Part shown: piece by piece, positions 3,767 to 51,330 of the stretch | How positions within the stretch are numbered: the stretch's first letter is position 1 | Layout of the letters: each line of letters starts with the position of its first letter | NCBI GenBank assembly: GCA_023249105.1 | Contig: JAHFDG010000021.1 | Location: forward strand, 1-56,635 | Source: Candidatus Methanoperedens sp. | GTDB taxonomy: Archaea > Halobacteriota > Methanosarcinia > Methanosarcinales > Methanoperedenaceae | DNA length: 56,635 bases | Direction of reading: 5' to 3' | The notes under the pieces: model-generated | Told to the model about the DNA's origin: nothing | Seen by the model: only the letters and a program-made list of their open reading frames with translations | Database searches by the model: none | Program-made: the position numbers and the translations under genes

Positions 3767-3876
3767 GATTTTTGTCCTTTACTTTTGATTTCCTAAATAT
3801 ATGATGTTAAATTAACTTAATAGCCTTTTCCAAAATCATATGGGATTTGGACAAGAAGCAATCGTCAAGGATGCAG

Positions 3877-6465
3877 TTAAACCAAATCAAGAGTTATAGT
3901 GTGACCTTCAAGGACATCCATATCACTTACATCGATTTGTTTTGAGACATTGCCAACGGTTACCGTATAAGGACCTGTTGGCCTGGTGTCAAAATTTGTG
4001 CCCCCCTTCTCTCCCGTGAAAAAACAACCGTTACATTCAAAAATTCCTGAAATTGGACCGAGCGTCGAATAGGGAACTGTAAATACATAAGTTCCGTTGG
4101 AGGCGGTGGTCTGTGAATATTGAACCTTTCTTTCAATGTTTGTTTTAATTGTATTTGTCAGCGTGACTGTAGTGTTTGGCGGCACCCGTCCCGTTATTTT
4201 TGCACCTTTTACATATTCAAAGACTTTTACAAGGCCTGAATTCTCTATTGGAATATGCCCTCTGTATAAAGTATTATAAATATATTTAATCTGCTGTTCC
4301 ATATATCCTCCTTCTGTATTTGGATTTTGAGGAGACTCGTGCACCAATCTATAGTTCTTTAAGCTATTACCATCAAAAATATGGAGTTTTGCCTCCATAT
4401 TATCATAATACTTCGAGGAAGGTACATCCTGAGGCCCCTGGTTCGTCTGGATCCACACGCGATAGCCATAATCTTCGTTCCAGATTCCAAAAATATCCAT
4501 TATTCCATATGCCATGAAACCATCACTCACAATATAGCGTGCTCCGGGTTTTCCATTAATTCCAAGAGCATTTAGTACACCAGAAGCCTCCTCCTCACTC
4601 TTTGCAGTTAAGAACGAAGACGCACCTGGCAGATGTTTCTCACCGCCGCCGATACCTCCCTGGAATGGGTTTGCATTGGGTATTCTGCGCGCCCAGTATG
4701 TTATAACATGCCCGTAGTCCCACCAGCTCATAACGCCGTATGCTGTCTCAGGATATGGATAAGTGCTATTTTTGGGTTGGTCATATTTTGCGAGATAGTC
4801 CATCCCGGGGTCAGGCGTGTTATAGCGCATCCAGGTAAGGGTTTCATACCATTCGCCAAATCCTCCGCCCGACGGCTCGCTTCCACCCCACCTTGAATAC
4901 TTCGTGTAGGTTTCGGAAAACGCTGGATAGGCAAAGAAAAGCAGCAGCATTACTACAAAAATCGTGGAAAGTACATGGCTCCCGCCAATATTTTTTATAT
5001 CGACTTGCCCCCCCCATCCCCCGAATATTAATAATCTCTCTGAAAGGGCTGCGCCAGCATAACCAACCATCAAGGCTACGTTCACCGCCGCATAATAAGC
5101 CCACCTGTTCTGACCGTACATTGCAAGAAGCATCACAATGCCCCACACCAGAAAGAGCATATCCTCAGGTCTTTGTTTTCTGGCAATCCTGTAGCCGATA
5201 ACAACCAGAACAGCTATAATAAACCAGAGGACAGCGTTGTCCGATTGCAGGGAGCCAAGTACGGGGAAATTACCCCAGAGCATGCCCGGTCTGTCAAAAA
5301 TCGATGTGGCTTCGGAGATGGTGTTGGCACCACCGGTGTGGACCGCAAATATGGTGGCAGGTGCATTCACAACAGCACTGTACATTTGAGGCAGAACCAT
5401 TTTTATTGTTAACATGCCCAGTGCAAAGAAGCCGCCCAGAGAAATGGGATAGTAGTACGAGCTATATCCTCTTTTTTTCATCTCGTTTGAGATAATACTT
5501 AACGCAATCGGCATGCCCATGCCGACGAGAGGCACTGCTATGTGGAACCATGAATATTTATCCGTCGCAAAACCACGTTCAGGATTAAAATATGGCAGCA
5601 TGGAAATTAAATTGATTAAAAACATGGGCACTGCTGCTATGGCAAGGTAATCGGTTGACCTGCCACGCATGTCGTCTATTATATACTGAATCAGAATGAA
5701 TATAGCGATAATCAAGGCAAAAAATGGAGCCCCGGGCCAGCTAAGCTGATAACCGGCAAGCATCACACCAGCAAATATTGAATACAAAACCGGCTTTTCT
5801 TTCAGGCGCACCTCAGAAAATTTTATATTTCTTTCCCTGCCGGCTTTTAATGAAAAAATAAAGAAAGCAATGGTCGCAGTACTGAAAAGCACCTCTGCAA
5901 CATGGTTGTCAGTGAAGCCAAGCGTTGAGCGGGAGAAAAACTGTCCTGGCAATATAGCGATCATAAATGCTGCAAGCAGACCGGTGGTCCTGTTGCGCAG
6001 GCTTTTACCTATGTAATACACGGGGAAAACGACAAGAGCGCCAAATACAGATGGGAAATAAGCACCTATCGTGTTCACTGTTTGCATATTGTAGCTGCCA
6101 AAACCAACTATTAGAGAGATAGTGGCAATCAACTGGGTCCATAGAGGTCCCCAATGCAAGGGGCTACCAAATGGATACAACGAAAAGGGATCAAAAGTAA
6201 GCCTGTGCGGGAAATTATAAAGGGTATTTTCCACAAGGCGCATCTGGAATACTGAATCGTCTGAAGCAAAAGCAACAACGCCATTCCTGAAAACGCTGTC
6301 ATAGGGCATCACTGTCCTTAAATAGAGTGAAAGGACGAAAGCGGCTAACAGAAGGATAGCGAAAATGTAATTAAAATAGGGTGGTATTATTAACCCGGTT
6401 TTAACTTCCTTTTTACCATTATTGACGGATTTTTTTAAGTCTTGCTTTTTTTTGTTACGAGTCAT
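3877..6465 (-). CDS. aglB: archaeal oligosaccharyltransferase (STT3/AglB), N-glycosylation
   Basis: The catalytic subunit that moves a lipid-linked glycan onto Asn of N-x-S/T sequons on the outer face of the membrane. The basic cytosolic N-terminus is followed by about a dozen membrane helices to residue about 515. The first acidic catalytic motif is FASDDSVFQMRLVEN (residues 66-80), the second is GFTDNHVAEV (183-191), the TISE loop motif is at 382-385, and the signature WWDYG is at 581-585. A beta-rich extracytoplasmic tail follows, with a CNGC pair near the C-terminus (about residue 806). The length of 862 aa is normal for euryarchaeal AglB. It overlaps the upstream GT4 gene by four bases, so it is cotranscribed with it, and it anchors the glycan locus that fills the next 45 kb. 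Confidence 0.96.
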   Translation of the reverse strand: MTRNKKKQDLKKSVNNGKKEVKTGLIIPPYFNYIFAILLLAAFVLSLYLRTVMPYDSVFRNGVVAFASDDSVFQMRLVENTLYNFPHRLTFDPFSLYPFGSPLHWGPLWTQLIATISLIVGFGSYNMQTVNTIGAYFPSVFGALVVFPVYYIGKSLRNRTTGLLAAFMIAILPGQFFSRSTLGFTDNHVAEVLFSTATIAFFIFSLKAGRERNIKFSEVRLKEKPVLYSIFAGVMLAGYQLSWPGAPFFALIIAIFILIQYIIDDMRGRSTDYLAIAAVPMFLINLISMLPYFNPERGFATDKYSWFHIAVPLVGMGMPIALSIISNEMKKRGYSSYYYPISLGGFFALGMLTIKMVLPQMYSAVVNAPATIFAVHTGGANTISEATSIFDRPGMLWGNFPVLGSLQSDNAVLWFIIAVLVVIGYRIARKQRPEDMLFLVWGIVMLLAMYGQNRWAYYAAVNVALMVGYAGAALSERLLIFGGWGGQVDIKNIGGSHVLSTIFVVMLLLFFAYPAFSETYTKYSRWGGSEPSGGGFGEWYETLTWMRYNTPDPGMDYLAKYDQPKNSTYPYPETAYGVMSWWDYGHVITYWARRIPNANPFQGGIGGGEKHLPGASSFLTAKSEEEASGVLNALGINGKPGARYIVSDGFMAYGIMDIFGIWNEDYGYRVWIQTNQGPQDVPSSKYYDNMEAKLHIFDGNSLKNYRLVHESPQNPNTEGGYMEQQIKYIYNTLYRGHIPIENSGLVKVFEYVKGAKITGRVPPNTTVTLTNTIKTNIERKVQYSQTTASNGTYVFTVPYSTLGPISGIFECNGCFFTGEKGGTNFDTRPTGPYTVTVGNVSKQIDVSDMDVLEGHTITLDLV

Positions 6466-8832: not shown

Positions 8833-9984
8833 ATGAAAATTGCTATAGTCGTTCCTTATTTTCAGAAAGAATGGGGTAGCTACGAATATTATCTGGCAAA
8901 AAACCTATCCATGCTAAGGCAGGATGTAACTATCATTACATCTGCTACAAAGGTGAAAAGATACTACCTGGATGATAGGTCTGCATTCATGGCAGAAGAA
9001 GAAGTTGATGGTTTTTATGTAAAACGCCTGCCAATAAAAATCGAGCTGGAAGAAGCGCCCTATATGCAGGACATGAGGAAAACTCTGGAGGCAGGCAGTT
9101 TTGACATTGTCCACTCGACCGAAGATTTCCAGCCCAGCTCGTGGCAGGCAAGTTCATATACAAAAAAACATAAGATTCCGCTGTTCATCACCCGCTGGCT
9201 TTACTGGAAACCCAATATCAGGCTGGCTTCTTTCTTCCAGTTTTATGACAGGTATATCTCAACCATCGTTAGAAATCGTGCAGCATCCATTATTGCCCCT
9301 TCCTATTCAATAAAAGAATATCTTCTTAACTATGGGGTAAATGAAGAGAAGATCCACTGGATACCGAGTGGCGTTGATATTGAGGCATTCTCCCCGAACC
9401 CCTCCTCAATGCTGAGGGAAAAACTGGGTCTTGGTGATGAGAAAATTATTTTGTCCATCGCGAGGCTCCATCCTCTCAAAGGTCTCCATTCACTTGTTCA
9501 GGCTTATGGGACTGTGGCAAGGAACTTTCCGGAGACAAGGCTTGTAATTCTGGGAAAGGGCCCACAGGAAAAAGAATTAAGAGACATGGCAAAACAATTG
9601 AACATAGAGAAAAAGGTGAGTTTTTTAACAGAACATGTACCCCATGAAAATATATCCCGGTTATATAATGGCGCCGATATCTTTGCTTTTCCAAGCATCG
9701 TAGAGCCGTTTGGGATGGTTAATCTTGAAGCGATGGCATGCGGTGTCCCGACGGTAGCTTCGAATACAGGCGGTATGAGGGATATGGTATTGCAGGGCAG
9801 AACTGGATTTCTATTCACTCCAGGGGATGTAAAAGGGATTGAAATCGCCCTGATGGCAATGCTCGGCGATGAAAGAAAGACAAAGGAAATGGGGACAGAA
9901 TCGAGAAAAAGGGCGCTGGAATACGATTGGAGAGAAATTGCAAAACAGATACTTGAGAGATATGAGGGTGCATTGCGATTATGA
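8833..9984 (+). CDS. GT4 glycosyltransferase
   Basis: A 383-aa GT-B protein. N-terminal domain: KIAIVVPYFQKEWGSYEYYLAKNL. C-terminal domain: LSIARLHPLKGLHSLVQAYG, then LVILGKGPQEKELR and the E-x7-E motif in VEPFGMVNLEAMACG followed by GVPTVASNTGG. All catalytic landmarks of a GT4 are present. It follows the previous GT4 gene by 71 bases in the same direction. It is probably a second step in assembling the same lipid-linked oligosaccharide. Sugar unknown. Confidence 0.92.
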   Translation: MKIAIVVPYFQKEWGSYEYYLAKNLSMLRQDVTIITSATKVKRYYLDDRSAFMAEEEVDGFYVKRLPIKIELEEAPYMQDMRKTLEAGSFDIVHSTEDFQPSSWQASSYTKKHKIPLFITRWLYWKPNIRLASFFQFYDRYISTIVRNRAASIIAPSYSIKEYLLNYGVNEEKIHWIPSGVDIEAFSPNPSSMLREKLGLGDEKIILSIARLHPLKGLHSLVQAYGTVARNFPETRLVILGKGPQEKELRDMAKQLNIEKKVSFLTEHVPHENISRLYNGADIFAFPSIVEPFGMVNLEAMACGVPTVASNTGGMRDMVLQGRTGFLFTPGDVKGIEIALMAMLGDERKTKEMGTESRKRALEYDWREIAKQILERYEGALRL

Positions 9985-10062
9985 GAATAGTACGCATCTC
10001 CACTATTTTTCTGCTTTCTGCCTTTTTGTGATGCGTAAATCATATTAAAAATTATAAAAAAA

Positions 10063-10091
10063 TATTTATACCCAAAAAAGAATCACGGAGG
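10063..10091 (+). promoter_or_regulatory. candidate promoter and ribosome site ahead of the FkbM gene
   Basis: TATTTATA at 10063-10070, within an A-rich run, is a good archaeal TATA box. GGAGG at 10087-10091 is a strong ribosome site. It is followed by a GTG frame of only 18 codons (10097-10153). The signals therefore do not sit directly in front of the FkbM start at 10208, which lies more than 110 bases downstream. Confidence 0.5.
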
Positions 10092-10113
10092 ATTAAGTGC
10101 TGAAAAAGTATAA

Positions 10114-10203
10114 ATGTCCGCGAAAGAGAAAAAGAAGATGTTTTTCGATATAAATAATGCAAAGGAACTAAAAATTAAAAAGATGTTAAATAAGTTGGAT
10201 TAA
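10114..10203 (+). CDS. possible 29-aa leader peptide
   Basis: ATG at 10114 opens a frame encoding a Lys-rich peptide (MSAKEKKKMFFDINNAKELK and nine more residues) that ends at TAA 10201-10203, four bases before the FkbM ATG. The position suggests translational coupling, but no homology is recognised. It could be the remnant of a longer gene, since a second short frame starting at GTG 10097 overlaps it. Confidence 0.25.
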   Translation: MSAKEKKKMFFDINNAKELKIKKMLNKLD

Positions 10204-10207
10204 TACC

Positions 10208-10903
10208 ATGTGGAATATAAAATATATTATACAAGACCTTTTACAGTCAAAAAATTTTCAAGAATTTATAAATCATAGATTCAGTGAAGACAGTAAAGTT
10301 ATACTTCCAAGAAATAGTTTTAAAACTATAAGTACAGAGTATGCTACATTCTATTTTGATGATTATGTGCAAACTATTGGAGATGTAGAATTAGATTATA
10401 GTTTTGAAGATATGCTCCCATCAGATATTGTGTTAGATATTGGGGCATGTATTGGTGCATTCTCCTTAAAAGCATGTAGAAAAGCAGTTCGTGTATATGC
10501 TGTAGAACCATTTATGACTGCACAGTTGAATCGCAATATTGAGTTAAATAAAGTAAAAAATGTTATCGTATTTAATACAGCGTTGGGAAAAGGTGAACTT
10601 AATTTAAAATGGGGAAATATGGTCAGAAAAGTAAAAAGTATGTCTCTTACTGAGATAATTAATCTGTGCGGTGGTCATGTAGACTTTCTAAAGTTGGATT
10701 GTGAGGGGGGGGAATGGTATATTCAGCCGCAGGAACTCCAAGGCATAAGAAGAATTGAAGCTGAAGTACATAATTTTGATGGCAAACACAAATTCAGAGA
10801 TTTTGAGAGTATGCTAGTCCAAGCGGGATTCGATTATATAAGAAAACCCTTAAAAGGTGGGATAGAAACAATTTGTATATCTGCTAGAAAAAAGCATAAT
10901 TAA
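10208..10903 (+). CDS. FkbM-family SAM-dependent methyltransferase
   Basis: A 231-aa methyltransferase of the FkbM family, which O-methylates sugars or related hydroxyls using S-adenosylmethionine. Motif I is VLDIGACIGAFSL (residues about 75-87), the ribose-binding acidic residue is in VYAVEPF, and the family motif DFLKLDCEGGEW is at about 158-169. The N-terminal 60 residues are a family-typical beta-rich region. In this context the target is likely a sugar of the surface glycan. It is followed one base later by the interrupted GT2 gene. Confidence 0.88.
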   Translation: MWNIKYIIQDLLQSKNFQEFINHRFSEDSKVILPRNSFKTISTEYATFYFDDYVQTIGDVELDYSFEDMLPSDIVLDIGACIGAFSLKACRKAVRVYAVEPFMTAQLNRNIELNKVKNVIVFNTALGKGELNLKWGNMVRKVKSMSLTEIINLCGGHVDFLKLDCEGGEWYIQPQELQGIRRIEAEVHNFDGKHKFRDFESMLVQAGFDYIRKPLKGGIETICISARKKHN

Positions 10904-22147: not shown

Positions 22148-23104
22148 ATGACAAAAAAAGTATTAATCACCGGAATTACTGGCTTCGTTGGAAGCCATCT
22201 TGCCGAGTATCTGCTAAGCTTAAATATGCAGGTCTACGGTACTGTAAAACGTAGAAGCAGGTTTGACTATATCGAAGATATAAAAAATAAATTAAAGCTC
22301 ATAGAATGCGATGTGATCGATTCCTATTCTGTTGAAAGCGCAGTAAGAGACGCCCAACCGGATTATATTTTCCACCTCGCTGCCCAGTCATTTGTTCCCA
22401 CAAGCTGGCGCTCGCCATTGGAAACATTGCATACAAATATAGATGGCACTTTAAATATTCTTGAAGCCGTGAGAAAGCTTGATCTTGACTCAAGAATCCA
22501 GATCGCTGGAAGCAGCGAGGAGTACGGCATGGTGTATCCTGATGAGGTCCCGATACGAGAGGAAAATCCCCTCAGACCCTTATCTCCTTATGCAGTGAGT
22601 AAAGTAGCCACAGACATGCTGGGCTACCAGTATTACAAGAGCTACGGATTAAAAGTTGTAAGGACACGAGCCTTTAATCATACAGGTCCGCGCAGGGGAG
22701 AGATGTTTGTTACGTCTAATTTTGCAAAGCAGATAGCTGAGATAGAAAAAGGATTGAAGGAGCCGATTATCCATGTGGGCAATCTCAATGCGCAACGGGA
22801 TTTTACTGATGTACGTGATATAGTTAAGGCATATCTCCTTGCGATTGAGAAGTGTGAGATTGGTGAAGTTTACAACATTTGCTCAGGAAAAGGCAGGAAG
22901 ATACAGGAGGTTCTGGATACGCTCCTCACCTTTACCAATAAAAAAATAAAAATTCAGCAGGATCCGGACAGGATGAGACCTTCAGATGTTGAGCTTCTTG
23001 TGGGAAGTAGCAGTAAGTTCAGGGAAAAAACAGGCTGGAAGCCTGAGATATCTTTTGAGAGGACAATGAAGGATTTGCTGGATTACTGGCGAGAGATTGT
23101 GTAG
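22148..23104 (+). CDS. GDP-mannose 4,6-dehydratase / GDP-6-deoxy-mannose reductase family SDR
   Basis: An extended SDR of 318 aa acting on a nucleotide sugar, most like Rmd/Gmd. NAD(P) loop ITGITGFVGSHLAEYL (residues 7-22), IFHLAAQSFVPTSWRSPLET (typical of the Gmd/Rmd group), the active-site strand IAGSSEEYGMV and YAVSKVATDML with catalytic Tyr and Lys. TRAFNHTGPRRGE is the sugar-binding loop. SSEEYG points slightly more to the reductase (Rmd) than to the dehydratase (TSELYG), so the exact step is uncertain. It heads a plus-strand pair with the flippase. Confidence 0.85.
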   Translation: MTKKVLITGITGFVGSHLAEYLLSLNMQVYGTVKRRSRFDYIEDIKNKLKLIECDVIDSYSVESAVRDAQPDYIFHLAAQSFVPTSWRSPLETLHTNIDGTLNILEAVRKLDLDSRIQIAGSSEEYGMVYPDEVPIREENPLRPLSPYAVSKVATDMLGYQYYKSYGLKVVRTRAFNHTGPRRGEMFVTSNFAKQIAEIEKGLKEPIIHVGNLNAQRDFTDVRDIVKAYLLAIEKCEIGEVYNICSGKGRKIQEVLDTLLTFTNKKIKIQQDPDRMRPSDVELLVGSSSKFREKTGWKPEISFERTMKDLLDYWREIV

Positions 23105-29639: not shown

Positions 29640-30593
29640 ATGAAATGTCTGGTAACGGGCGGCGCAGGATTTATAGGTTCACATCTTGTTGACAGATTAC
29701 TTAGCAACGGTCACGATGTGATCGTATATGATAATTTTTCCACTGGTTTTCAAGAATTTTTAAACGGTGCTAAGAAACACGATAATTTCAAATTTGTCAG
29801 AGGAGACCTTTTAAATCTTCGATTTCTTACAAAATCCATGTCTGGCTGTGATTTTATTTTTCATCTGGCAGCGAATGCAGACGTCAGATTTGGTACATCG
29901 CACCCGGATAAAGATCTTAAACAGAATACTGTAGCCACTTTTAATGTTCTTGAAGCAATGCGATTGAATAATATAAAAAAAATCGCTTTTTCTTCAACAG
30001 GTTCGGTTTATGGGGAAGTAGCTATCATTCCAACACCTGAAGATGCCCCTTTTCCTGTTCAAACCTCACTTTATGGAGCTTCAAAATTAGCTTGTGAAGG
30101 ATTGATACAGGCGTATTGCGAAGGATTTGGTTTTCAATCATGGATTTTCCGTTTTGTCTCGATTCTTGGGGAACGATATACTCATGGGCACGTGTTTGAT
30201 TTTTATAAGAAATTATTGGCGAACCCTGATAGGCTTGATGTTCTTGGGAACGGAAAGCAGAGAAAATCATATTTATATGTACAGGATTGCATAGATGCGA
30301 TGTTGCTTGCAATCGAAAAATCTGGTGAGAAGGTCAACATATTCAATTTAGGAACAGATGAGTATTGCGAAGTCAATAACTCTATCAAATGGATATGCAG
30401 TCATCTTAATGTCTCTCCCCAATTGGTTTACTCAGGAGGAGAACGGGGATGGATTGGCGACAATCCTTTTATTTTCCTGGATTGTTCGAAGATAAGGGGG
30501 CTCGGCTGGAAACCTAAATATACGATAAAAGATGGTATTATAAAAACATTAAGTTACCTCGAAGAAAATAAATGGGTACTGGATAGACAATGA
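29640..30593 (+). CDS. extended SDR, nucleotide-sugar epimerase or dehydratase
   Basis: A 317-aa SDR of the UDP-glucose-4-epimerase-like group: [18 protein letters not shown] (NAD loop), FHLAANADVRFGTSHP, active-site strand AFSSTGSVYGE, and LYGASKLACEGLI with Tyr and Lys. First gene of the overlapping operon that continues into the heptose genes. Its stop overlaps the next start by four bases. The substrate is probably the NDP-heptose or a derived keto sugar, which is inference from context only. Confidence 0.88.
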   Translation: MKCLVTGGAGFIGSHLVDRLLSNGHDVIVYDNFSTGFQEFLNGAKKHDNFKFVRGDLLNLRFLTKSMSGCDFIFHLAANADVRFGTSHPDKDLKQNTVATFNVLEAMRLNNIKKIAFSSTGSVYGEVAIIPTPEDAPFPVQTSLYGASKLACEGLIQAYCEGFGFQSWIFRFVSILGERYTHGHVFDFYKKLLANPDRLDVLGNGKQRKSYLYVQDCIDAMLLAIEKSGEKVNIFNLGTDEYCEVNNSIKWICSHLNVSPQLVYSGGERGWIGDNPFIFLDCSKIRGLGWKPKYTIKDGIIKTLSYLEENKWVLDRQ

Positions 30594-31912
30594 AAATCTG
30601 CGTATTTGGTTTATGGCACCTTGGTTCTGTAATTGCTTCATGCCTTGCTGAGAAAGGTTTTGAAGTCGTTGGGCTTGATCTGGATTCAAATAGGATCAAG
30701 GATCTGCAGAATGGGATTCCGCCAATATTTGAACCCGGTTTGGAAGATTCAATTAAGAAAAGCTTAGCAAGCAAAAAACTTTTTTTCACAACAGATGAAA
30801 AAAGTGCTCTGGAAAAAACCGATATTTTATGGGTAGCATTTGACACACCTGTGGATGAAACCGACAGAGCAGACGTTGATTATGTTATAAATCAAATCGA
30901 GAGATTATTCATCCATATTGAATCAGGAATGATAGTATTAATCTCATCACAATTACCTGTCGGGTCCACAAGACAATTGCAGGGAGCTTATTTTAAGCAG
31001 TATCCGAAGAAAAAGGTAATTTTTTCATATTCTCCAGAAAATTTAAGACTTGGTAAAGCGATAGAATCTTTTACAAAACCTGAAAGAATAGTGGTCGGCT
31101 TAAGTAATATTGAAAAGAGAGAAAAAATCGAAGCTTTATTAAAACCGTTTTGTAACGATATAGAATGGATGTCTATAGAGTCAGCAGAAATGACAAAACA
31201 TGCCTTAAATGCGTTTCTGGCAACATCTATATCTTTTATCAATGAACTTGCGATCCTGTGTGAAAAAACAGGTGCTGATGCCCGTGAAGTAGAACGTGGA
31301 TTGAAGAGCGATCCGCGCATAGGTATAAAATCATATCTTATAGCAGGCGCCGCTTTTGCTGGAGGGACTCTTGCAAGAGATGTTGTTTTTCTGGAGACTA
31401 TAGGCAGATCACTGTCTATACCAACATCACTGATCACGGCAGTTAATGTAAGTAATCAAGAACATAAGATGTGGGCTTTGAACAAATTAAGAATAGAATT
31501 GGGCGATTTAAAGGGTAAAACTGTCGCTGTTCTTGGTCTGACGTATAAACCCGGGACAAACACATTAAGACGATCAAGCTCAATCGAACTTTGCGAAAAT
31601 CTTGTTAAATATGGTGCAATCATAAAGTGCCATGATCCATCTCTTAACAAACTTCCACCGGAGTATGAAGAAAAATTTATTTTTTCGTCTTCAATTACAG
31701 ATATTCTGAAAGGGGCTGATGCATTGGTCGTCGCAACAGAATGGCCTGATTATAAATCAATATCTATTGACGATATTCTGCAAAATATGCGCAAACCCAT
31801 TGTGATCGATGCAAAAAGATTTCTGGAAAAACCATTGGGAGAAGATCAACGAATTTGTTATATTGCTGTTGGTCGCCCACTAAAAACCGAGGTATATTCA
31901 AAATGCAATTAA
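30590..31912 (+). CDS. UDP-glucose/GDP-mannose dehydrogenase paralogue lacking the catalytic Cys
   Basis: A 440-aa member of the nucleotide-sugar 6-dehydrogenase fold: NAD-binding CVFGLWHLGSVIASCLAEKG, FSYSPENLRLGKAIE in place of the normal NPEFLREG block, EMTKHALNAFLAT, and a C-terminal NDP-binding domain with LGLTYKPGTNTLRRSSSIEL. At the active site, where the genuine enzyme in this window (50044-51330) has GGSCFPKD with Cys264 and Lys267, this protein has GGTLARD with Thr260 and Arg263. A second conserved Lys (ATKISF) is Ser (ATSISF). It therefore cannot form the thiohemiacetal needed for two-step oxidation to an acid. It may oxidise a hydroxyl once, epimerise, or act on another sugar. Overlaps both neighbours. 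Confidence 0.88.
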   Translation: MKICVFGLWHLGSVIASCLAEKGFEVVGLDLDSNRIKDLQNGIPPIFEPGLEDSIKKSLASKKLFFTTDEKSALEKTDILWVAFDTPVDETDRADVDYVINQIERLFIHIESGMIVLISSQLPVGSTRQLQGAYFKQYPKKKVIFSYSPENLRLGKAIESFTKPERIVVGLSNIEKREKIEALLKPFCNDIEWMSIESAEMTKHALNAFLATSISFINELAILCEKTGADAREVERGLKSDPRIGIKSYLIAGAAFAGGTLARDVVFLETIGRSLSIPTSLITAVNVSNQEHKMWALNKLRIELGDLKGKTVAVLGLTYKPGTNTLRRSSSIELCENLVKYGAIIKCHDPSLNKLPPEYEEKFIFSSSITDILKGADALVVATEWPDYKSISIDDILQNMRKPIVIDAKRFLEKPLGEDQRICYIAVGRPLKTEVYSKCN

Positions 31913-32772
31913 AAGGTAAGAACGCAATAATAACCGGGTCAAACCAGGGATTTGGAAAAGCGATAGCAGAAGAGTTCATATCCCAGGGAGCAAATATTTT
32001 GATATGTGCCCGTAATGAGCAGCTTCTTGAATCTGCAAGAAAAGAACTTTCAAAGAAAGCAGCAGGATCCCATAAAGTATATGCGTGTCGGGTTGATGTA
32101 ACGGATCATGAAAGTTTGGATCAGCTTTATAAAACAGCTCTTGAAAAATTTGGAAATATCGATATCTTGGTAAATAACGCAGGGGTCTATGGTCCAAAAG
32201 GTGCTATAGAGGAAATAGATTGGGATGAATGGGTAGAAGCAATAAAAATCAATCTGTTAGGTACTGTTCTGGCTTGCAAGATTTTTGTACCGCATTTTAG
32301 AAAGAACGGGTATGGTAAAATAATCAATCTATCGGGTGGTGGAGCTACTGCACCATTGCCGCGTATAAGCGCTTATGCTGCCTCCAAAGCTGCTGTCGTC
32401 AGGTTCACAGAAACACTTTCTGAAGAACTAAAAGGCACGGGCGTTGAGGTTAATTGTATTGCTCCCGGCGCTTTAAATACAAGGCTGCTTGATGAGGTTT
32501 TAGAAGCAGGTATGGAAAAAGTAGGGAAAACATTTTATGAACGTTCTCTGGCTCAAAAACAACAGGGTGGAACACCGCTGGTCAAAGGAGCGCAATTGTG
32601 CGTATTCTTAGCGTCAGATAAGAGCAATGGCATCACGGGAAAGTTGATCAGCGCGGTTTGGGACCCGTGGGATAAGCTTCCTGAACATCTTGAAGATTTG
32701 AAAAATAGCGATGTATATACTTTGAGGCGCATCATTCCAAAAGAAAGAGGTATGACCTGGGGAGATGTTTAA
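31903..32772 (+). CDS. classical short-chain dehydrogenase/reductase
   Basis: About 289 aa. The NAD(P) motif TGSNQGFGKA lies just after the start MQLKGKNAIITG, NNAG is at about residue 90, and the catalytic Ser-Tyr-Lys lies in NLSGGG and YAASKAAVVRF. I start it at ATG 31903, which puts MQLKGKNAI at the family's usual N-terminus and overlaps the previous stop by 10 bases. An upstream TTG-type extension adds 16 unrelated residues. Part of the heptose operon; likely works on a keto intermediate together with the Gfo/Idh enzyme. Confidence 0.88.
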   Translation: MQLKGKNAIITGSNQGFGKAIAEEFISQGANILICARNEQLLESARKELSKKAAGSHKVYACRVDVTDHESLDQLYKTALEKFGNIDILVNNAGVYGPKGAIEEIDWDEWVEAIKINLLGTVLACKIFVPHFRKNGYGKIINLSGGGATAPLPRISAYAASKAAVVRFTETLSEELKGTGVEVNCIAPGALNTRLLDEVLEAGMEKVGKTFYERSLAQKQQGGTPLVKGAQLCVFLASDKSNGITGKLISAVWDPWDKLPEHLEDLKNSDVYTLRRIIPKERGMTWGDV

Positions 32773-33751
32773 CGTGAATGTAGGAATTGTAGGTTGTGGT
32801 TTAATTGGCCAAAAAAGAGCAGCATCTTTAGGCAATAATGAACTGAAAGGCGTAGCAGATGTTTCGCTTGACCGGGCACAAAAATTAGCTTCCTGTTATA
32901 ATGGTGTTGAAGCATTTTCAGATTGGAAAAATCTTGTTGAACGTGATGATATTGACATAGTGATCGTTTCGACAACAAATAACTGGCTTGCGCCAATAAC
33001 CCTTGAAGCCGTTAGATCAGGGAAGCATGTTCTTGTCGAAAAACCAGGCGCTCTTAATTTTAGGGAGCTTGATCCGGTAATCGAAGCCGCAAAAAAGAGC
33101 AGGGTAAAAGTCAAAGTGGGTTTTAACCTGCGCTGCCATCCTTCATTTATAAAAGCTCGTGAAGTAGTCGATTCCGGGATACTTGGAAAATTGATGTTCA
33201 TCCGTGGGCGTTACGGTCATGGTGGTCGCCCTGGTTATGATAAAGAGTGGCGTGCGGATCCAGCTATTTCCGGAGGTGGAGAATTGATAGACCAGGGAGT
33301 ACATATTATTGACCTTTCGAGATGGTTCCTTGGGGATTTCACACAGGTTTTAGGTTCTGTGCATACATATTTCTGGAATATGCCTGTGGAAGATAATGGT
33401 TTCATTCACCTTGAAACCTCATCTGGAAATGCAGCATGGTTACAGGTGAGTTGTACGGAATGGAAAAACATGTTTTCATTTGAAATATATGGTGAACAAG
33501 GGAAATTGCAGATCGATGGGCTGGGAGGCAGCTATGGAACAGAAAGGCTAACATTTTATCATATGTTACCCCAGATGGGCCCTCCAGAGACAACAATATG
33601 GGAATATCCTGCCAATGATATGTCCTGGAAAATTGAGTTTGAAGAATTTATAAACACAATAAAGAGCAACAGTGAGCCACAACCCGGTCTTAAAGATGCC
33701 CGTGCAGCTTTAGAGATCGTATCGAAAATATATGAGGTGTCCAAAAAATGA
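32765..33751 (+). CDS. Gfo/Idh/MocA family oxidoreductase
   Basis: A 328-aa NAD(P)-dependent sugar oxidoreductase. Rossmann start VGIVGCGLIGQKRAASL, the family's GKHVLVEKPGALN with the key Lys (about residues 87-99), and the C-terminal substrate domain with GGGELIDQGVHIIDLSRWFLG, whose D-x-x-x-H pattern is the catalytic site. Start overlaps the SDR stop by 8 bases and its stop overlaps the kinase start by four. Probably oxidises or reduces a ring hydroxyl of the operon's sugar. Confidence 0.9.
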   Translation: MFNVNVGIVGCGLIGQKRAASLGNNELKGVADVSLDRAQKLASCYNGVEAFSDWKNLVERDDIDIVIVSTTNNWLAPITLEAVRSGKHVLVEKPGALNFRELDPVIEAAKKSRVKVKVGFNLRCHPSFIKAREVVDSGILGKLMFIRGRYGHGGRPGYDKEWRADPAISGGGELIDQGVHIIDLSRWFLGDFTQVLGSVHTYFWNMPVEDNGFIHLETSSGNAAWLQVSCTEWKNMFSFEIYGEQGKLQIDGLGGSYGTERLTFYHMLPQMGPPETTIWEYPANDMSWKIEFEEFINTIKSNSEPQPGLKDARAALEIVSKIYEVSKK

Positions 33752-34731
33752 TAATTACACGCAGCCCACTTCGAATATCTCTTGGCGGTGGGGGGACAGA
33801 TCTACCATCGTACTACATGGAACACGAAGGGTTTTTAATCGCAGCAGCTATTGATAAGTATGTGTACATCACTTTACACCAGACATTTGTGGAAGAGATG
33901 ATCATAAAATATTCAAAGATGGAACGTGTTGCCAGCATCGAAGAAATCCAGCATCCGATTATTCGCGAGGCACTGAAGCTTGTAAATATTCAAAACCTGA
34001 ATCTTGAATTAGCGAGTATGGCAGATATACCTGCCGGGACAGGTTTGGGATCATCGGGCAGCTTTACATGCGCTTTATTGAAAGCCTTGCACGCATACAA
34101 GAAAAACTTAATACACCCGAATGAGCTCGCAGAACAAGCATGCCATATCGAGATGGATTTGCTGAAAGAACCAATCGGTAAACAGGACCAATATATATCA
34201 GCATATGGTGGTATCAATTGCTTCAAATTCTGTAAAAATGATACAGTCGAAGCAAAACCTCTCAAAATCTCAGATGAAACACTCTACAGTCTTGAAGACA
34301 ATCTCCTGTTATTTTTCACCGGATATTCAAGATCAGCTTCAAATATTCTGAAAGAACAGGACGATAAAAGCAAAAAAAATGACTCATCAATAATTGAGAA
34401 TCTGCATTTTGTTAAAGATATTGGTTACAAAAGCCAGCAAGCTTTCGAATCCGGAGATCTTGAAAAGTTTGCTGAATTGATGAATGTTCATTGGGAATAC
34501 AAGAAACAACGCTCAAATTCGATGAGCAACAATAAAATCAATGAATGGTACGACATAGCAATGAAAAATGGGGCGCTGGGCGGCAAACTCATAGGTGCAG
34601 GAGGCGGCGGTTTTCTCATGTTTTACACGGATGAAAATATGAAGCTCAGGCATGCAATGGCACATGGGGGTTTAAAAGAAGTCCGCTTTAAATTTGACTT
34701 TGAAGGCAGTAAAGTGGTAACGCAATCATGA
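33748..34731 (+). CDS. hddA: GHMP sugar kinase, D-glycero-D-manno-heptose 7-phosphate kinase-like
   Basis: A 327-aa GHMP kinase. SPLRISLGGGGTDLPSYY (residues 6-23) is the substrate-side signature of the HddA/HddA-like heptose-phosphate kinases. The ATP loop is PAGTGLGSSGSF (95-106), and GAGGGGFLMFY near the C-terminus is motif 3. In known heptose pathways this enzyme makes heptose 1,7-bisphosphate for the GmhB phosphatase. Symbol given by similarity to HddA and by its neighbours. Four-base overlaps on both sides. Confidence 0.88.
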   Translation: MIITRSPLRISLGGGGTDLPSYYMEHEGFLIAAAIDKYVYITLHQTFVEEMIIKYSKMERVASIEEIQHPIIREALKLVNIQNLNLELASMADIPAGTGLGSSGSFTCALLKALHAYKKNLIHPNELAEQACHIEMDLLKEPIGKQDQYISAYGGINCFKFCKNDTVEAKPLKISDETLYSLEDNLLLFFTGYSRSASNILKEQDDKSKKNDSSIIENLHFVKDIGYKSQQAFESGDLEKFAELMNVHWEYKKQRSNSMSNNKINEWYDIAMKNGALGGKLIGAGGGGFLMFYTDENMKLRHAMAHGGLKEVRFKFDFEGSKVVTQS

Positions 34732-35447
34732 TGCCGCCAGCAGTCATTCTTGCTGGAGGATTGGCAACACGACTCTATCCAGTGTCATCAAAAACCCCAA
34801 AATCCCTCATTGAAGTGGCAGGAAAACCATTTATTTTTCACCAATTAGCACTTTTAAAACAGCAGGGTGTATGCCATGTCGTGTTATGTGTCGGTAAGTT
34901 CGGAGAAATGATACAGGATTATGTCGGCGATGGGCATAGATGGGATTTAAGGGTACAATATTCTTATGATGGTGATGTTCTGCTTGGGACGGGGGGGGCA
35001 ATTAAAAAAGCATGCCCACTGCTTCCAGAAGTATTTTTTGTGTTATACGGTGATTCCTATCTTGATGTTGATATGATGCCAATCCTTGAGAGGTTTGAAT
35101 CTGAAGGAAAACCAGCTTTGATGACTGTTTATCGTAATAAGAATCATTGGGATAAAAGCAACATTTTATTCCAGGATGGTCGAATTGTAAAATACGACAA
35201 AAAAAATCCAACGCCTGAGATGGAGCACCTTGATTATGGAATAAATATCTTGATGAAAAAAGTTTTTAATGATTGGCCAGATGGAGTGCCCTTTGATCTT
35301 TCAGAGGTCTTTACTAAACTTATCGAAAAAGGTGAATTATCGGCTTTTGAAGTTTTCAAACGTTTTTACGAAATTGGATCTATCCAGGGAATAAAAGAAA
35401 CTGAACAATATTTAAATAGTAAGCATCAAATTTGTAAAAATACGTGA
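34728..35447 (+). CDS. hddC: sugar-1-phosphate nucleotidyltransferase, HddC-like
   Basis: A 239-aa nucleotidyltransferase without a C-terminal beta-helix. Signature VILAGGLATRLYPVSSKTPK with Gly10-11, Arg15 and Pro-Lys 24-25, the metal-binding YGDSYLDVD at about residues 107-115, and LGTGGAIKKA for the sugar. Short single-domain enzymes of this kind next to HddA/GmhA/GmhB activate heptose-1-phosphate to GDP-heptose (HddC) or ADP-heptose. The nucleotide used is not determined by sequence alone. Overlaps the kinase by four bases. Confidence 0.85.
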   Translation: MMPPAVILAGGLATRLYPVSSKTPKSLIEVAGKPFIFHQLALLKQQGVCHVVLCVGKFGEMIQDYVGDGHRWDLRVQYSYDGDVLLGTGGAIKKACPLLPEVFFVLYGDSYLDVDMMPILERFESEGKPALMTVYRNKNHWDKSNILFQDGRIVKYDKKNPTPEMEHLDYGINILMKKVFNDWPDGVPFDLSEVFTKLIEKGELSAFEVFKRFYEIGSIQGIKETEQYLNSKHQICKNT

Positions 35448-35452
35448 TAAAT

Positions 35453-36058
35453 ATGGAACTGGAAGATTATATTAATACTTATTTTAAAGACTGCGTTGAG
35501 ATTATTAATCAGATTGACAGGGAACAAATAACAAAAATTGCTACAATCCTTAAAAAAATCCAGACAAGACAGGGTAGGCTGTTTATTCTTGGTGTAGGCG
35601 GAAGTGCAGGCAATGCATCCCATGCTGTTAATGATTTTCGAAAAATTGCAGGCATCGAATCCTATGCCCCAACGGACAACGTTTCTGAACTTACGGCAAG
35701 GGTTAATGATGATGGGTGGGAGACAGTATTTATAAACTGGTTGAAGGGAAGCCGATTAAATTCAAAGGATGGCATCATTGTATTCTCAGTAGGCGGAGGT
35801 AATGCTGAAAAAAACGTGAGCGTTAACCTTGTCAGAGCATTACAATATGCCAAGGAAGTAGGTGCAAGTATTATGGGTATTGTTGGACGTGATGGCGGAT
35901 ACACTGCAATGGTTGCTGATGCCTGTGTTATTATTCCTCCGGTGAACGATGAAACTATTACGCCTCAAACAGAGGCGTTTCAAGCTGTTATCTGGCATTT
36001 ACTTGTTTCCAGTCCGGAAATGAGAAAATTTGAAATGAAGTGGGAGAGCACCAAATAA
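35453..36058 (+). CDS. gmhA: SIS-domain sedoheptulose 7-phosphate isomerase
   Basis: About 201 aa. LGVGGSAGNASHAVNDF is the SIS phosphosugar-binding motif, and TPQTEAFQAVIWHLL carries the Gln and His that correspond to the catalytic region of GmhA. GmhA turns sedoheptulose-7-phosphate into D-glycero-D-manno-heptose-7-phosphate. A GTG nine bases upstream (35444) would overlap the previous stop by four; I prefer ATG 35453 because a GTGAT lies just before it, but both are possible. Directly follows the nucleotidyltransferase. Confidence 0.88.
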   Translation: MELEDYINTYFKDCVEIINQIDREQITKIATILKKIQTRQGRLFILGVGGSAGNASHAVNDFRKIAGIESYAPTDNVSELTARVNDDGWETVFINWLKGSRLNSKDGIIVFSVGGGNAEKNVSVNLVRALQYAKEVGASIMGIVGRDGGYTAMVADACVIIPPVNDETITPQTEAFQAVIWHLLVSSPEMRKFEMKWESTK

Positions 36059-36071
36059 TCGGTGGAACTGA

Positions 36072-36665
36072 ATGGTAGAGGCTGTTTTTCTGGACAGGGA
36101 TGGCGTGCTTAACGAGCTTGTATTAAATCCTGCGACTGGAGAGTATGAGCCTCCTCATCGTATAGAGGATATGAGACTTTTTCCTTACGCGATTGAATGC
36201 CTCGAAAAGCTCCAGGATTCAGGATATGAGCTGTTTCTCATCTCTAACCAGCCTGATTATGCTAAAGGAAAAACCACTCTTGAAGCATTAGAGAAAGTTC
36301 ATAAAAAATTTGATCAATTGTTAACTTCACAGGGAATCCATTTCAGGGAATATTATTATTGCTTTCATCACCCTCAGGGGATAATACCTGAATATGCCTC
36401 TGAATGCATATGCCGCAAACCAAAGCCATTTTTTCTTTTCAAGGCGGAAGAGGATTATAATATCGATCTTGGAAACTCATGGATGATCGGTGACCGGGAT
36501 ACAGATATCGAATGTGGCAAAGCCGGAGGTACGAAAACAATATTAATTGAGGAATCATTATCAGTGCATAAACGCGGGAAAAGCCTGCCGGATTATAAGA
36601 CAAAAAATTTAAAAGAGGCTGTTAACATAATACTTCAAATAGACAAAGGCATTGCACAAAAATAA
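36072..36665 (+). CDS. gmhB: HAD phosphatase, heptose 1,7-bisphosphate 7-phosphatase
   Basis: A 197-aa HAD-superfamily phosphatase of the GmhB/HisB-N group. DxD motif FLDRDGVLNE (Asp8, Asp10), motif II ISNQPD, zinc loop with Cys97, His99/100, Cys112 and Cys114, and motif III-IV GDRDTDIECGKAGG. In the heptose pathway it removes the 7-phosphate before nucleotidyl transfer. 13 bases after gmhA. A decayed copy of its 3' end lies at 37910-37996. Confidence 0.9.
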   Translation: MVEAVFLDRDGVLNELVLNPATGEYEPPHRIEDMRLFPYAIECLEKLQDSGYELFLISNQPDYAKGKTTLEALEKVHKKFDQLLTSQGIHFREYYYCFHHPQGIIPEYASECICRKPKPFFLFKAEEDYNIDLGNSWMIGDRDTDIECGKAGGTKTILIEESLSVHKRGKSLPDYKTKNLKEAVNIILQIDKGIAQK

Positions 36666-36757: not shown

Positions 36758-36946
36758 ACCCCTGTGAGGCGCCGCCGATGGCGGGATTTAGCATTAGATA
36801 ATCGGTTGATTCGGTTCAACCATATCTGACCCCTCGTTCCAGCAGTCAGTGTTGGGTAGATAAAAGTTAAACGTATTGAACACTATATAATTATGAATAC
36901 AAAATTTTCAGAGAAATGCCAGGATTGATTACAAGAGGTGATGAGA

Positions 36947-37261
36947 TTGTTGTCCCAAGAATTGATGAGAAAAGAAATACAAATCGGTCCAAAGATAGGA
37001 CTTTATAAAAGTGAGCAAGAATTTATAAGTGAAGCTATTAATACGCTTATGGCATCCAGAAAAGATTTGAGAATAGCCATAGCATCTGAATTATATAGAA
37101 ATGATGATATCTCTTTTGGAAAAGCATGTGAAATAGCCTCCCTGGATATTGAAGAAATGAAAGAGGAATTGCACAAGAGAAAGATCAAGAGAAAGGTAAA
37201 TGTGTCTTTGGTTGAAATGGAAAACATGGCAACGGAGGCCATAAGAATTGCAGGAAGATAA
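36947..37261 (+). CDS. UPF0175-like antitoxin
   Basis: About 104 aa. The N-terminal half has the ribbon-helix-helix-like LYKSEQEFISEAINTLM. The second half, DISFGKACEIASLDIEEMKEEL, is the UPF0175 pattern of a helix-turn-helix antitoxin. The only strong ribosome site, GAGGTGA at 36935-36941, overlaps GTG 36938 and abuts ATG 36941, so those cannot be the start; TTG at 36947 or 36950 is best placed. It overlaps the toxin gene by 14 bases. It would neutralise the PIN toxin and repress their promoter, as is known for such pairs. Confidence 0.75.
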   Translation: MLSQELMRKEIQIGPKIGLYKSEQEFISEAINTLMASRKDLRIAIASELYRNDDISFGKACEIASLDIEEMKEELHKRKIKRKVNVSLVEMENMATEAIRIAGR

Positions 37262-37745
37262 AATCATAATACTGGATACTGATTTCTTAAGCTCTTTTTT
37301 GAAAATTGGCAAATTGAATTTGGTGAAGGATTTTTTTAATGTTGAGTTTCTTCATATTCCAGTCGGTGTGTTGAGAGAGATTTCAGCAACCAGTTTGATG
37401 AATGAATTTTTAGAAATAAATTATATAAAAACAGTACAAGTTTCACAGAAGCATTTTGGAATTTTGAAAGCTGAGGAATTTGACCGTCTTGGTTCAGGAG
37501 AAAAAGAATGTATGGCTTTATGCAAGCAATATCCAAATTCTTTGCTCTTTATCAGTGATAATAAGGCGAGAAAAGTTGCTATGAAAAACGGTATTGTAGT
37601 TTTGAACATTTCAGGGTTCCTGCTTGCATGTAAAAAGACCATGTTTTTGGAAACAAATGAAATTGCTACGATTATGAATGATCTGAAACAAAAAGATTAT
37701 TATGAATTTAGCGCGGTTGAAAAGAAAGAATTATTGAAATCTTGA
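37248..37745 (+). CDS. PIN-domain toxin, DUF3368-like
   Basis: A 165-aa PIN-domain nuclease. IILDTDFLSSFLK supplies the first acidic residues (Asp10/Asp12), LGSGEKECMALC the central Glu, and FISDNKARKVA the third Asp, the usual metal-binding set. It resembles the DUF3368 group that pairs with UPF0175 antitoxins. Start is TTG 37248 with GGAGG eight bases ahead. The pair sits between gmhB and the transaldolase, next to a relic of gmhB, so it looks like an insertion into the heptose operon. Confidence 0.8.
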   Translation: MQEDKIIILDTDFLSSFLKIGKLNLVKDFFNVEFLHIPVGVLREISATSLMNEFLEINYIKTVQVSQKHFGILKAEEFDRLGSGEKECMALCKQYPNSLLFISDNKARKVAMKNGIVVLNISGFLLACKKTMFLETNEIATIMNDLKQKDYYEFSAVEKKELLKS

Positions 37746-37909: not shown

Positions 37910-37996
37910 AAAAAACGCGGGAAAAGCCAGCCGGATTATAAAACTGAAAATTTGAAAGAGGCTGTAAATATAATACTTCATATAGACCAAAAATAA
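37910..37996 (+). pseudogene. relic of the gmhB 3' end
   Basis: Read in the gmhB frame this stretch gives KKRGKSQPDYKTENLKEAVN then IILHIDQK and a stop. The real gmhB C-terminus reads HKRGKSLPDYKTKNLKEAVN then IILQIDKGIAQK. About 85% of residues match and the stop is kept. It is a second, decayed copy of about 85 bases, located just before the transaldolase start. It shows that gmhB once ended here. In the remaining part of the 280-bp gap (37746-37909) I see no gene. Confidence 0.88.
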
Positions 37997-38025: not shown

Positions 38026-38742
38026 ATGAAAGGATTAAAACAATTTAAAATCAAGCTGTATGCCGATGGTGCGGATTTGAAGGAGATGATAGGGGTTTAT
38101 AATGAAGGAATTGTAAGCGGTTTCACCACAAATCCTACATTGATGAGAAAAGCCGGCGTAAAGAACTATGAAGATTTTGCAAAAGCTGCGCTGAAAGCGA
38201 TTCCTGACCTTCCTGTATCATTCGAGGTATTCTCGGATGACCTGGGCGGGATGGAGAGGGAAGCCCGTAAAATCGCTGGCTGGGGTGAAAACGCTTACAT
38301 AAAGATACCTGTCACAAATACTAAAGGAGAAAGCACAGCATCCCTGGTTAAAAAGTTGTCACATGACGGATTAAAGCTGAATGTAACTGCCATTTTAACA
38401 ATCGAGCAGGTAAAACAAGTCTCTCGTGCTCTTTCGCCTGCAACCCCAAGTATAGTTTCAGTGTTTGCAGGGCGAATTGCTGATACCGGTAGGGACCCCG
38501 TGCCCATAATGAAAGAAGCGGTTGGGATTTTGAAATCGAATACGAAATCGGAACTTCTATGGGCAAGTACCAGGGAATTACTGAATCTTGCGCAGGCTGA
38601 ATCATGCGGATGCCACATTATAACAATTACCAATGATATATTGAAAAAAGTCCCGATGCTTGGCAAGGATCTTAATGAGTTATCGCTGGATACTGTTAAG
38701 ATGTTCTATAATGATGCACATGCGGCGGGGTATATGATTTGA
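38026..38742 (+). CDS. transaldolase family, TalC/FSA-like
   Basis: A 238-aa class I aldolase of the small transaldolase (MipB/TalC) subfamily. LYADGADLKEM holds the first Asp, VSGFTTNPTLMRKAG is the family signature, and the Schiff-base Lys93 lies in YIKIPVTNTKGE. Transaldolase activity makes sedoheptulose-7-phosphate from fructose-6-phosphate and erythrose-4-phosphate, the entry point for heptose synthesis. This fits the operon, although F6P aldolase activity is also possible. GAGG just upstream of the ATG (38015-38020 region) is its ribosome site. Confidence 0.88.
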   Translation: MKGLKQFKIKLYADGADLKEMIGVYNEGIVSGFTTNPTLMRKAGVKNYEDFAKAALKAIPDLPVSFEVFSDDLGGMEREARKIAGWGENAYIKIPVTNTKGESTASLVKKLSHDGLKLNVTAILTIEQVKQVSRALSPATPSIVSVFAGRIADTGRDPVPIMKEAVGILKSNTKSELLWASTRELLNLAQAESCGCHIITITNDILKKVPMLGKDLNELSLDTVKMFYNDAHAAGYMI

Positions 38743-50043: not shown

Positions 50044-51330
50044 TTACCAGCAAAGACCCACATATTCAATATCTTTCCCCGGCTTAACCAATATGTGCCG
50101 TCCGTCTATTACGAGCCTGTTTTCCATAGCATCAAATTCCTTATTAAGTGATTTGAATTCATCCCATTCGGTCATTATAAGGCAGGCTTCAGCACCGCTT
50201 AATGCGTCCGCTGCCGAGCTGTAATATCCAATGCCGCTGAATAGCTTTTTCATATTCTCGTTTGCCATCGGGTCGTAAGCAGATACCCTGGCCCCTTCAT
50301 CCAGTAATTCTTTAATTACCGGTATCGACCTTGATTCCCTGATGTCATCGGTGTCATTCTTGAACGCAAGCCCAAGGACTGCGATATTTTTTCCTTCCAG
50401 GCTCCCGAGCTTATTTTTTAGCAATAGCACCATCCTTGCCGGCTGCCCCTCGTTAATCGCAATTACTGATTTAAGCAATCGGGGTTCATAGCCAATCTCT
50501 TTAGCCTTGCCAATCAGGGCTTTCACATCCTTGGGGAAACATGAGCCTCCAAAGCCGGCTCCTGAGTTGAGAAAGTATGGCCCTATCCTGAAATCCTTCC
50601 CCACGGCTGACATGACCTCATAGGTATCGATGCCGAGCAGCTTGCAGATATTTCCTACCTCGTTCGAAAAGGATATTTTGGTTGCAAGAAAGGCATTGTT
50701 TACATATTTTATCATCTCAGCCGTGCGCGGGTTTGTCCTTGTTACCTCGCATTTAAGACCGTTGTAAAGAGAGGCTACAATATCGCCTGACTTTTTATCG
50801 AGAGAACCTATTACTATCTTGTCGGGATGCATGAAATCATGAACCGCCTTGCCTTCCCGCAGGAACTCCGGGTTCATGGCAATACCGAACTCCCCCGGAT
50901 GTTTTCCTGAATGTTTCTCTATTATGGGAAGCACTATCTTCTCCGTTGTCTCAGGAACAACCGTGCTTTTTACAACGATAACATGGTAACCTTTCTTTTT
51001 TCTTAGCGAGTCGCCAAGACTGGCGCTTGCGGCCCTGACGATGCCGAGGTCAATGTTGCCTTCGGAGTCGGAAGGAGTTCCCACACAAATAAATGAGACA
51101 TCAGAATTCATTATCGCAAGCTCGTAATCGGAAGTGGCACTGAGCCTCTTGCCGGCGTGCTTTTCCAGTAGTTCAGGGAGACCTTCTTCATAAATAGGCG
51201 GAATTCCTGCATTTATCATGTCAATTTTTGACTTATCTATATCAACACATATCACTTCATGCCCGAGTTCTGCAAAACATGCTGCACTCACACTGCCGAC
51301 GTATCCTGTCCCGATTATGGATATTTTCAT
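50044..51330 (-). CDS. ugd: UDP-glucose 6-dehydrogenase
   Basis: A 428-aa enzyme oxidising UDP-glucose to UDP-glucuronate. NAD loop SIIGTGYVGSVSAACFAELG, NPEFLREGKAV with the general base, EMIKYVNNAFLATKISF with Lys208, and GAGFGGSCFPKDV with catalytic Cys264 and Lys267. All are intact, in contrast to the paralogue at 30590-31912. It supplies UDP-glucuronate for uxs. The promoter should lie in the 127-bp gap 51331-51457, where AACTTATAGG is a candidate TATA region. Confidence 0.93.
   Translation of the reverse strand: MKISIIGTGYVGSVSAACFAELGHEVICVDIDKSKIDMINAGIPPIYEEGLPELLEKHAGKRLSATSDYELAIMNSDVSFICVGTPSDSEGNIDLGIVRAASASLGDSLRKKKGYHVIVVKSTVVPETTEKIVLPIIEKHSGKHPGEFGIAMNPEFLREGKAVHDFMHPDKIVIGSLDKKSGDIVASLYNGLKCEVTRTNPRTAEMIKYVNNAFLATKISFSNEVGNICKLLGIDTYEVMSAVGKDFRIGPYFLNSGAGFGGSCFPKDVKALIGKAKEIGYEPRLLKSVIAINEGQPARMVLLLKNKLGSLEGKNIAVLGLAFKNDTDDIRESRSIPVIKELLDEGARVSAYDPMANENMKKLFSGIGYYSSAADALSGAEACLIMTEWDEFKSLNKEFDAMENRLVIDGRHILVKPGKDIEYVGLCW

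Follow-up and report, generated by a model that had tools for sequence, protein, structure and literature searches.

A Cysteine-Less Clade of Nucleotide-Sugar Dehydrogenases That Accompanies a Putative Heptose Cassette in Archaea and Bacteria

What defines the NDP-sugar dehydrogenases is a twofold, four-electron oxidation that proceeds through a cysteine. The canonical enzymes position the C6 of a hexose by means of Lys204, Asn208, and Asp264 and convert its primary alcohol to an aldehyde and then, via a thioester bound to the cysteine, to an acid. In the GDP-mannose dehydrogenases, His{359} holds the 2-OH of mannose. The roles of the catalytic residues, which we number as in the UDP-glucose dehydrogenase (UGDH) of S. 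pyogenes, have been assigned (PMC4794789): Asp264, Lys204, and Asn208 serve the first oxidation, Cys260 the second oxidation, and Tyr10 (98% conserved) the hydrolysis of the thioester, and Arg244, Lys320, and Arg327 are assigned to the sugar, the diphosphate, and NAD, respectively.

The window analyzed here, a stretch of 56,635 nucleotides from Candidatus Methanoperedens sp. (contig JAHFDG010000021.1), contains an intact open reading frame at 30590-31912 (+) whose product of 440 amino acids is a member of the UDP-glucose/GDP-mannose dehydrogenase superfamily with threonine at the position of the catalytic cysteine. The protein matches TIGR03026 with 323 bits (cut-off 190), and it contains all three UDPG_MGDP_dh domains of Pfam above the curated cut-offs (PF03721, N-terminal, 1.4e-41; PF00984, central, 8.6e-24; and PF03720, C-terminal, 2.2e-26). 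An AlphaFold2 model of the protein (pLDDT 84, with the lowest confidence at residues 246-257, the loop just before the motif) was used to query Foldseek, and the best matches were all UGDH, headed by BceC and the P. gingivalis enzyme; we take the model to confirm the fold and not the pocket. The source genome encodes only two members of the family. The other is a canonical paralogue at 50044-51330 (-) with the motifs GGSCFPKD and ATKISF, which is the genuine enzyme that a previous, sequence-only reading of the window had mentioned; it lies outside the cassette described below, has no member of that cassette within about 5 kb of it, and served for comparison.

The motif of the 30590-31912 protein is GAAFAGGTLARD, and the longer stretch around it reads AAFAGGTLARD. 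Counting back without gaps from the retained Asp264 in GGTLARD (residues 258-264, 31361-31381, +) puts Thr260 at the position of the catalytic cysteine and Arg263 at that of a lysine. Both substitutions had been proposed in the sequence-only reading, and both are real: threonine occupies position 260 in all 22 members of the clade, as compared to cysteine in 21 of 21 canonical enzymes, and Arg263 and Asp264 are invariant in the same 22 sequences, down to 40% identity. The NAD loop, GTGYVG in canonical enzymes, has become GLWHLG (residues 7-12, 30608-30625, +), with Trp9 in place of glycine and His10 in place of Tyr10 (W and H in 22/22 Cys-less sequences, G and Y in 21/21 canonical ones). Because the second glycine of GxGxxG is tryptophan in every member, the Cys-less enzyme may bind NAD in an unusual manner. 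Gln121 of SSQ (residues 119-121, 30944-30952, +) replaces Thr118 and is likewise universal in the clade, as compared to threonine in all 21 canonical enzymes. In SPENLRLG (residues 148-155, 31031-31054, +), Glu141 is kept as E150 and Glu145 has been replaced by leucine (Leu154), as it has in all 22 members. The aspartate whose equivalent forms a hydrogen bond with Glu145 in S. pyogenes UGDH (PMC4794789) corresponds to alignment index 491, at which aspartate is present in 21/21 canonical enzymes and threonine in 21/22 Cys-less sequences. In all, fifteen alignment columns separate the clade from the canonical enzymes fully or nearly so.

Meanwhile, the residues of the first oxidation (Lys204, Asn208, and Asp264) are present in all 22 members, as are Glu141, Arg244, Lys320, and Arg327. 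The equivalents of Lys204 and Asn208 are K203 and N207 of AEMTKHALN (residues 199-207, 31184-31210, +). The sequence-only reading had also drawn attention to a change from ATKISF to ATSISF. This change is real and extends across the clade (serine in 20, glutamate in one, and cysteine in one of the 22 sequences), but the lysine concerned is not the catalytic Lys204, which stays as the invariant K203, and so loss of a catalytic lysine is ruled out. Judged by these residues, the clade has lost the second half-reaction and retained the first: Cys260, Tyr10, Thr118, and Glu145, residues of a four-electron 6-dehydrogenase, are gone, and with them the set for the second oxidation and for hydrolysis of the thioester. 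Thus, the earlier suggestion that two-step oxidation has been lost, which had named fewer residues, gains backing from changes at three positions beyond Cys260.

Two further positions bear on the nucleotide sugar. The His{359} site is leucine in the Cys-less enzyme, as in UDP-glucose enzymes. Index 406 is alanine in 17 of the 22 Cys-less sequences; since alanine is found there in GDP-mannose dehydrogenases and glycine elsewhere (PMC4794789), this residue provides a weak hint of GDP as the nucleotide.

A maximum-likelihood tree of 48 sequences, built with the motif columns left out, separated all 22 Cys-less sequences from the rest by a branch supported at 100/99, and GGTL.RD arises on it by a single change; the motif thus defines a clade, as the sequence-only reading had proposed to check. 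An identity gap separates the two sets, the Cys-less sequences being at least 40% identical and the canonical enzymes at most 36%. The Cys-less enzyme is present in three of 31 Methanoperedens genomes, and one relative in the same genus, G012 (locus L013), encodes a protein identical to that of L003. Relatives of 40-54% identity occur in Thermoplasmata, Methanomicrobiales, Polyangiaceae, Firestonebacteria, Pelagibacteraceae, Nitrospirae, and Obscuribacterium, on two Rhizobium plasmids, on a plasmid of Lawsonia intracellularis, and in single genomes of several groups. Within the clade, archaeal and bacterial sequences intermingle, as expected of horizontal transfer. The branch is real and conserved, as well as rare (one to six of 237-337 genomes per sampled group, counting the seed genome) and patchily spread over archaea and bacteria.

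Between Methanoperedens copies of the enzyme, dN/dS was 0.13 and 0.15; selection is purifying, and the enzyme is not in decay. The loci do not show scattered loss of the cysteine amid decayed neighbors, which had been named beforehand as the mark of a simply inactive protein, and we exclude a pseudogene on the basis of the invariant pattern in 22/22 sequences, the dN/dS values, and the intact cassette. A frameshift or a misread motif is also excluded, as the same motif recurs across independent genomes. We rejected a phage origin as well: the phage collection contained canonical-like relatives only, of about 32% identity or less. Separately, we note that the Firestonebacteria contig that carries the Cys-less gene of L008 also encodes a second odd NDP-sugar dehydrogenase (L062), which is 25% identical. 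It retains the cysteine (AGPCFPRD), but GTGYVG is replaced by GLGKLG and NPEF by NPVF, so that Tyr10 and Glu141 are missing; its divergence is of another kind than that of the Cys-less clade.

The gene for the Cys-less enzyme starts 4 nucleotides inside the end of a gene at 29640-30593 (+) for a GalE-like extended SDR (an NAD-dependent epimerase/dehydratase; Pfam Epimerase, 6e-52), the nearest solved structures to which are 3ehe and 8rdg. Downstream lie genes for a classical SDR oxidoreductase (31903-32772, +; Pfam adh_short, 2.7e-56), which probably uses NADP(H) because an arginine follows β-strand 2; a Gfo/Idh/MocA oxidoreductase (32765-33751, +); an HddA-like GHMP kinase, that is, a sugar 7-phosphate C1 kinase (33748-34731, +); a MurU/HddC-like sugar-1-phosphate nucleotidyltransferase (34728-35447, +); a SIS-domain isomerase distantly related to GmhA (35444-36058, +); a GmhB-like HAD-IIIA phosphatase (36072-36665, +); and a transaldolase/FSA-family enzyme (38026-38742, +; Pfam TAL_FSA, 4e-42), which is the probable supplier of sedoheptulose 7-phosphate. 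From 29640 to 36058, most junctions are overlaps of 4-8 nucleotides, an operon-like arrangement. As would be looked for in a GDP-D,D-heptose cassette, heptose enzymes are found as close solved relatives of three of the products: the structures nearest to the kinase are the D-glycero-D-manno-heptose kinases 3k85 and 4usm, the PDB matches of the isomerase are phosphoheptose isomerases (best 3.4e-11; 1tk9 is a solved heptose relative), and 6jq8 and 5xhw are among the best four solved matches of the nucleotidyltransferase. The curated models were matched below their cut-offs throughout, with HddA at 175 bits against 600 for the kinase, GmhA at 48 against 209, GmhB at 113 against 178 and 106 against 150, HddC at 94 against 300, and, for the GalE-like protein, the HldD model TIGR02197 at 76 against 274.6. 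An activated heptose is our best reading of the cassette product, and another C7 sugar, or even a C6 sugar, would be compatible with heptose models that all score below cut-off.

A copy, 88% identical, of the last 78 nucleotides of the GmhB-like gene (36570-36647) lies at 37913-37990. Between the repeats is an insert of about 1.27 kb that contains a gene for a UPF0175 protein (36938-37261) and an open reading frame for a PIN-like protein (37248-37745) that has no Pfam match; the two are likely to be a toxin and its antitoxin. Because L003 and L086 have the transaldolase gene directly after the phosphatase gene, the pair in the window has been inserted into the cassette. Elsewhere in the window, an SDR resembling LegB and GDP-mannose-4,6-dehydratase is encoded at 22148-23104, homologues of which (38% in L003, 37% in L083) stand beside the cassette; it is possibly an extra tailoring enzyme.

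Members of the cassette accompany the Cys-less enzyme elsewhere. The Gfo/Idh enzyme is its partner in all 21 loci, and the kinase was found in 20, the epimerase in 19, the SDR in 18, the nucleotidyltransferase in 18, the SIS isomerase in 15, the HAD phosphatase in 15, and the transaldolase, usually adjoining the phosphatase, in 14, these counts being lower bounds as several contigs end inside the cassette. The 19 GalE-like orthologues are 58-88% identical and conserve STGS.YG and Y.ASK; a close GalE-like gene is absent from two loci and a close SDR from three. The SDR or the Gfo/Idh gene was found within 1.5 kb at none of 33 canonical loci, as compared to 15 of 17 Cys-less loci of the same size. 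Among the 31 Methanoperedens genomes, the Gfo/Idh orthologue occurs in the same three as the Cys-less enzyme and in no others, and close kinase orthologues occur in these same three; another three genomes contain kinases that are more distant (40%). The distances of the SDR, kinase, Gfo/Idh enzyme, nucleotidyltransferase, and epimerase track those of the Cys-less enzyme (Mantel r 0.67-0.86, p 0.0005); no such tracking was seen for the SIS isomerase (Mantel r 0.13). Thus, the co-occurrence anticipated in the sequence-only reading is borne out for the Gfo/Idh and heptose-activation genes and, in most loci, for the SDR. These genes, nine in all with that of the Cys-less enzyme, evidently move between bacteria and archaea as a set. 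On the Lawsonia intracellularis plasmid (L041), the SIS, HAD, and transaldolase genes form one block and the GalE-like gene lies about 10 kb away; the cassette genes there carry generic annotation only, the Cys-less copy being labeled "nucleotide sugar dehydrogenase." L083 combines in one cluster, at 2947-4275 and 9285-10583, a UGDH-like protein of 33% identity and the Cys-less enzyme, together with several GalE-like genes.

What reaction might the Cys-less enzyme catalyze? In a heptose, C6 bears C7 and its alcohol is secondary; oxidation there ends at a ketone, and no thioester is possible. Oxidation that halts at the ketone would leave Cys260, Tyr10, and the Glu145/Asp pair useless, and they could then have been lost together; such a model would account in one step for the joint loss of these residues in a heptose-linked branch. 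We therefore propose, with a probability of slightly under one half, that the Cys-less enzyme is a one-step NDP-heptose dehydrogenase, which carries out one NAD-dependent two-electron oxidation and not two. In the pathway that we envision, the transaldolase would give sedoheptulose 7-phosphate, which the SIS isomerase would turn into heptose 7-phosphate; the HddA-like kinase would add a phosphate at C1, the HAD enzyme would take off the 7-phosphate, and the nucleotidyltransferase would yield NDP-heptose. The Cys-less enzyme would then oxidize C6 once to produce NDP-6-keto-heptose, which would be epimerized at C5 and/or re-reduced, with either the Gfo/Idh enzyme or the NADPH-type SDR as the reductase, and the GalE-like enzyme would alter another stereocenter. 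The end product, destined for a surface glycan, would be a heptose of L-glycero or otherwise re-set configuration. The substrate, the carbon oxidized, the order of the steps, and the product are those that we infer. We put forward more tentatively the wider picture in which a cassette moving horizontally among archaea and bacteria makes undescribed nucleotide heptoses by way of a UGDH-fold, ketone-forming NDP-heptose 6-dehydrogenase.

Retention of the first-oxidation residues together with loss of the cysteine would also suit an enzyme that oxidizes the terminal C7 alcohol (or the C6 of a hexose) once and releases the aldehyde, a dialdose, after which C6 would be epimerized through an enolate and the SDR or the Gfo/Idh enzyme would carry out the reduction. 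The human C276A mutant, when it starts from UDP-glucose, cannot complete the reaction (PMC3184952), and PMC10680097 lists four routes to the inversion of C6, oxidation at C7 among them. However, the fold puts C6, not C7, beside Lys204, Asn208, and Asp264, and a free aldehyde is reactive; we regard both the C7 oxidation and the enolate route that would follow it as unlikely. A serious alternative, though in our judgment quite an unlikely one, is that the enzyme is a self-contained epimerase that oxidizes and re-reduces the same carbon with tightly held NAD, in the manner of HldD on ADP-heptose. The altered and invariant loop GLWHLG might grip the cofactor tightly, and the ADP-heptose 6-epimerase acts by oxidation and reduction at C6 (cited in PMC10680097), but a separate reductase is at hand in the ever-present Gfo/Idh enzyme and the usual SDR. 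We know of no epimerase with the UGDH fold, and by inference we favor single oxidation over self-contained epimerization.

Two other explanations leave the single oxidation aside. Loss of the cysteine and the change to GxGxxG could be those of a scaffold or regulatory subunit that has no catalytic activity and has been retained for complex formation, but such a protein would have no need of Lys204, Asn208, Asp264, Arg244, Arg327, and Lys320, which are invariant in 22/22 sequences, and we consider this very improbable. We give hardly any credence to the idea that Thr260 stands in for cysteine as the nucleophile and that an acid (a heptosuronic acid) is still made, by a different route: threonine and serine can in principle form hemiacetals, and the human C276S mutant accumulates a covalent adduct (PMC3184952), but Tyr10, needed for hydrolysis, Thr118, and Glu145 are missing as well in all members.

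If the proposed single oxidation of a heptose is correct, then a family defined by four-electron oxidation would have in this clade its first branch that works in one step and independently of the cysteine, and C6 of a heptose could be reset by a second kind of chemistry alongside that of HldD. By giving up the second half-reaction and keeping the first, a whole branch illustrates how the family can be turned to secondary alcohols, and the Cys-less enzyme is a concrete, assayable candidate for heptose C6 chemistry. The cassette would also reveal a sugar pathway behind generic gene names in methane-oxidizing archaea, SAR11-type bacteria, rhizobia, and Lawsonia. In the open-access literature that we searched, we found no description of a Cys-less UGDH or of a heptose 6-dehydrogenase.

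Finally, we compare the Cys-less enzyme with the systems it most resembles. With UDP-glucose 6-dehydrogenase (TuaD/UGDH; EC 1.1.1.22), as represented by the P. gingivalis enzyme (3gg2) and BceC of B. cepacia (2y0e), it shares the three-domain fold, 32-34% identity, and the first-oxidation and substrate-binding residues, but it lacks Cys260, Tyr10, Thr118, and Glu145, forms a clade of its own, and has a different gene neighborhood. GDP-mannose 6-dehydrogenase (AlgD) belongs to the same family and has the alanine at index 406 that is seen in 17/22 Cys-less sequences (PMC4794789); the Cys-less enzyme differs from it in having neither the catalytic cysteine nor His{359}, and it scores 131 bits to AlgD as compared to 254 to UGDH. 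The heptose modification enzymes of C. jejuni (the C4-dehydrogenase Cj1427, epimerases, and C4-reductases) are preceded by the same four activation steps, as judged by homology, and follow the same logic of oxidation, modification, and reduction by separate enzymes (PMC10680097). Cj1427, however, oxidizes C4, no UGDH-fold enzyme is among the heptose enzymes listed in that paper, and the inversion of C6 of GDP-heptose in C. jejuni HS:3/HS:4 is described there as unexplained. The ADP-heptose 6-epimerase HldD/RfaD acts by oxidation and reduction at C6 of the heptose, the carbon at which we place the action of the Cys-less enzyme, but it does so with an extended SDR fold, unlike the UGDH fold of the Cys-less enzyme.
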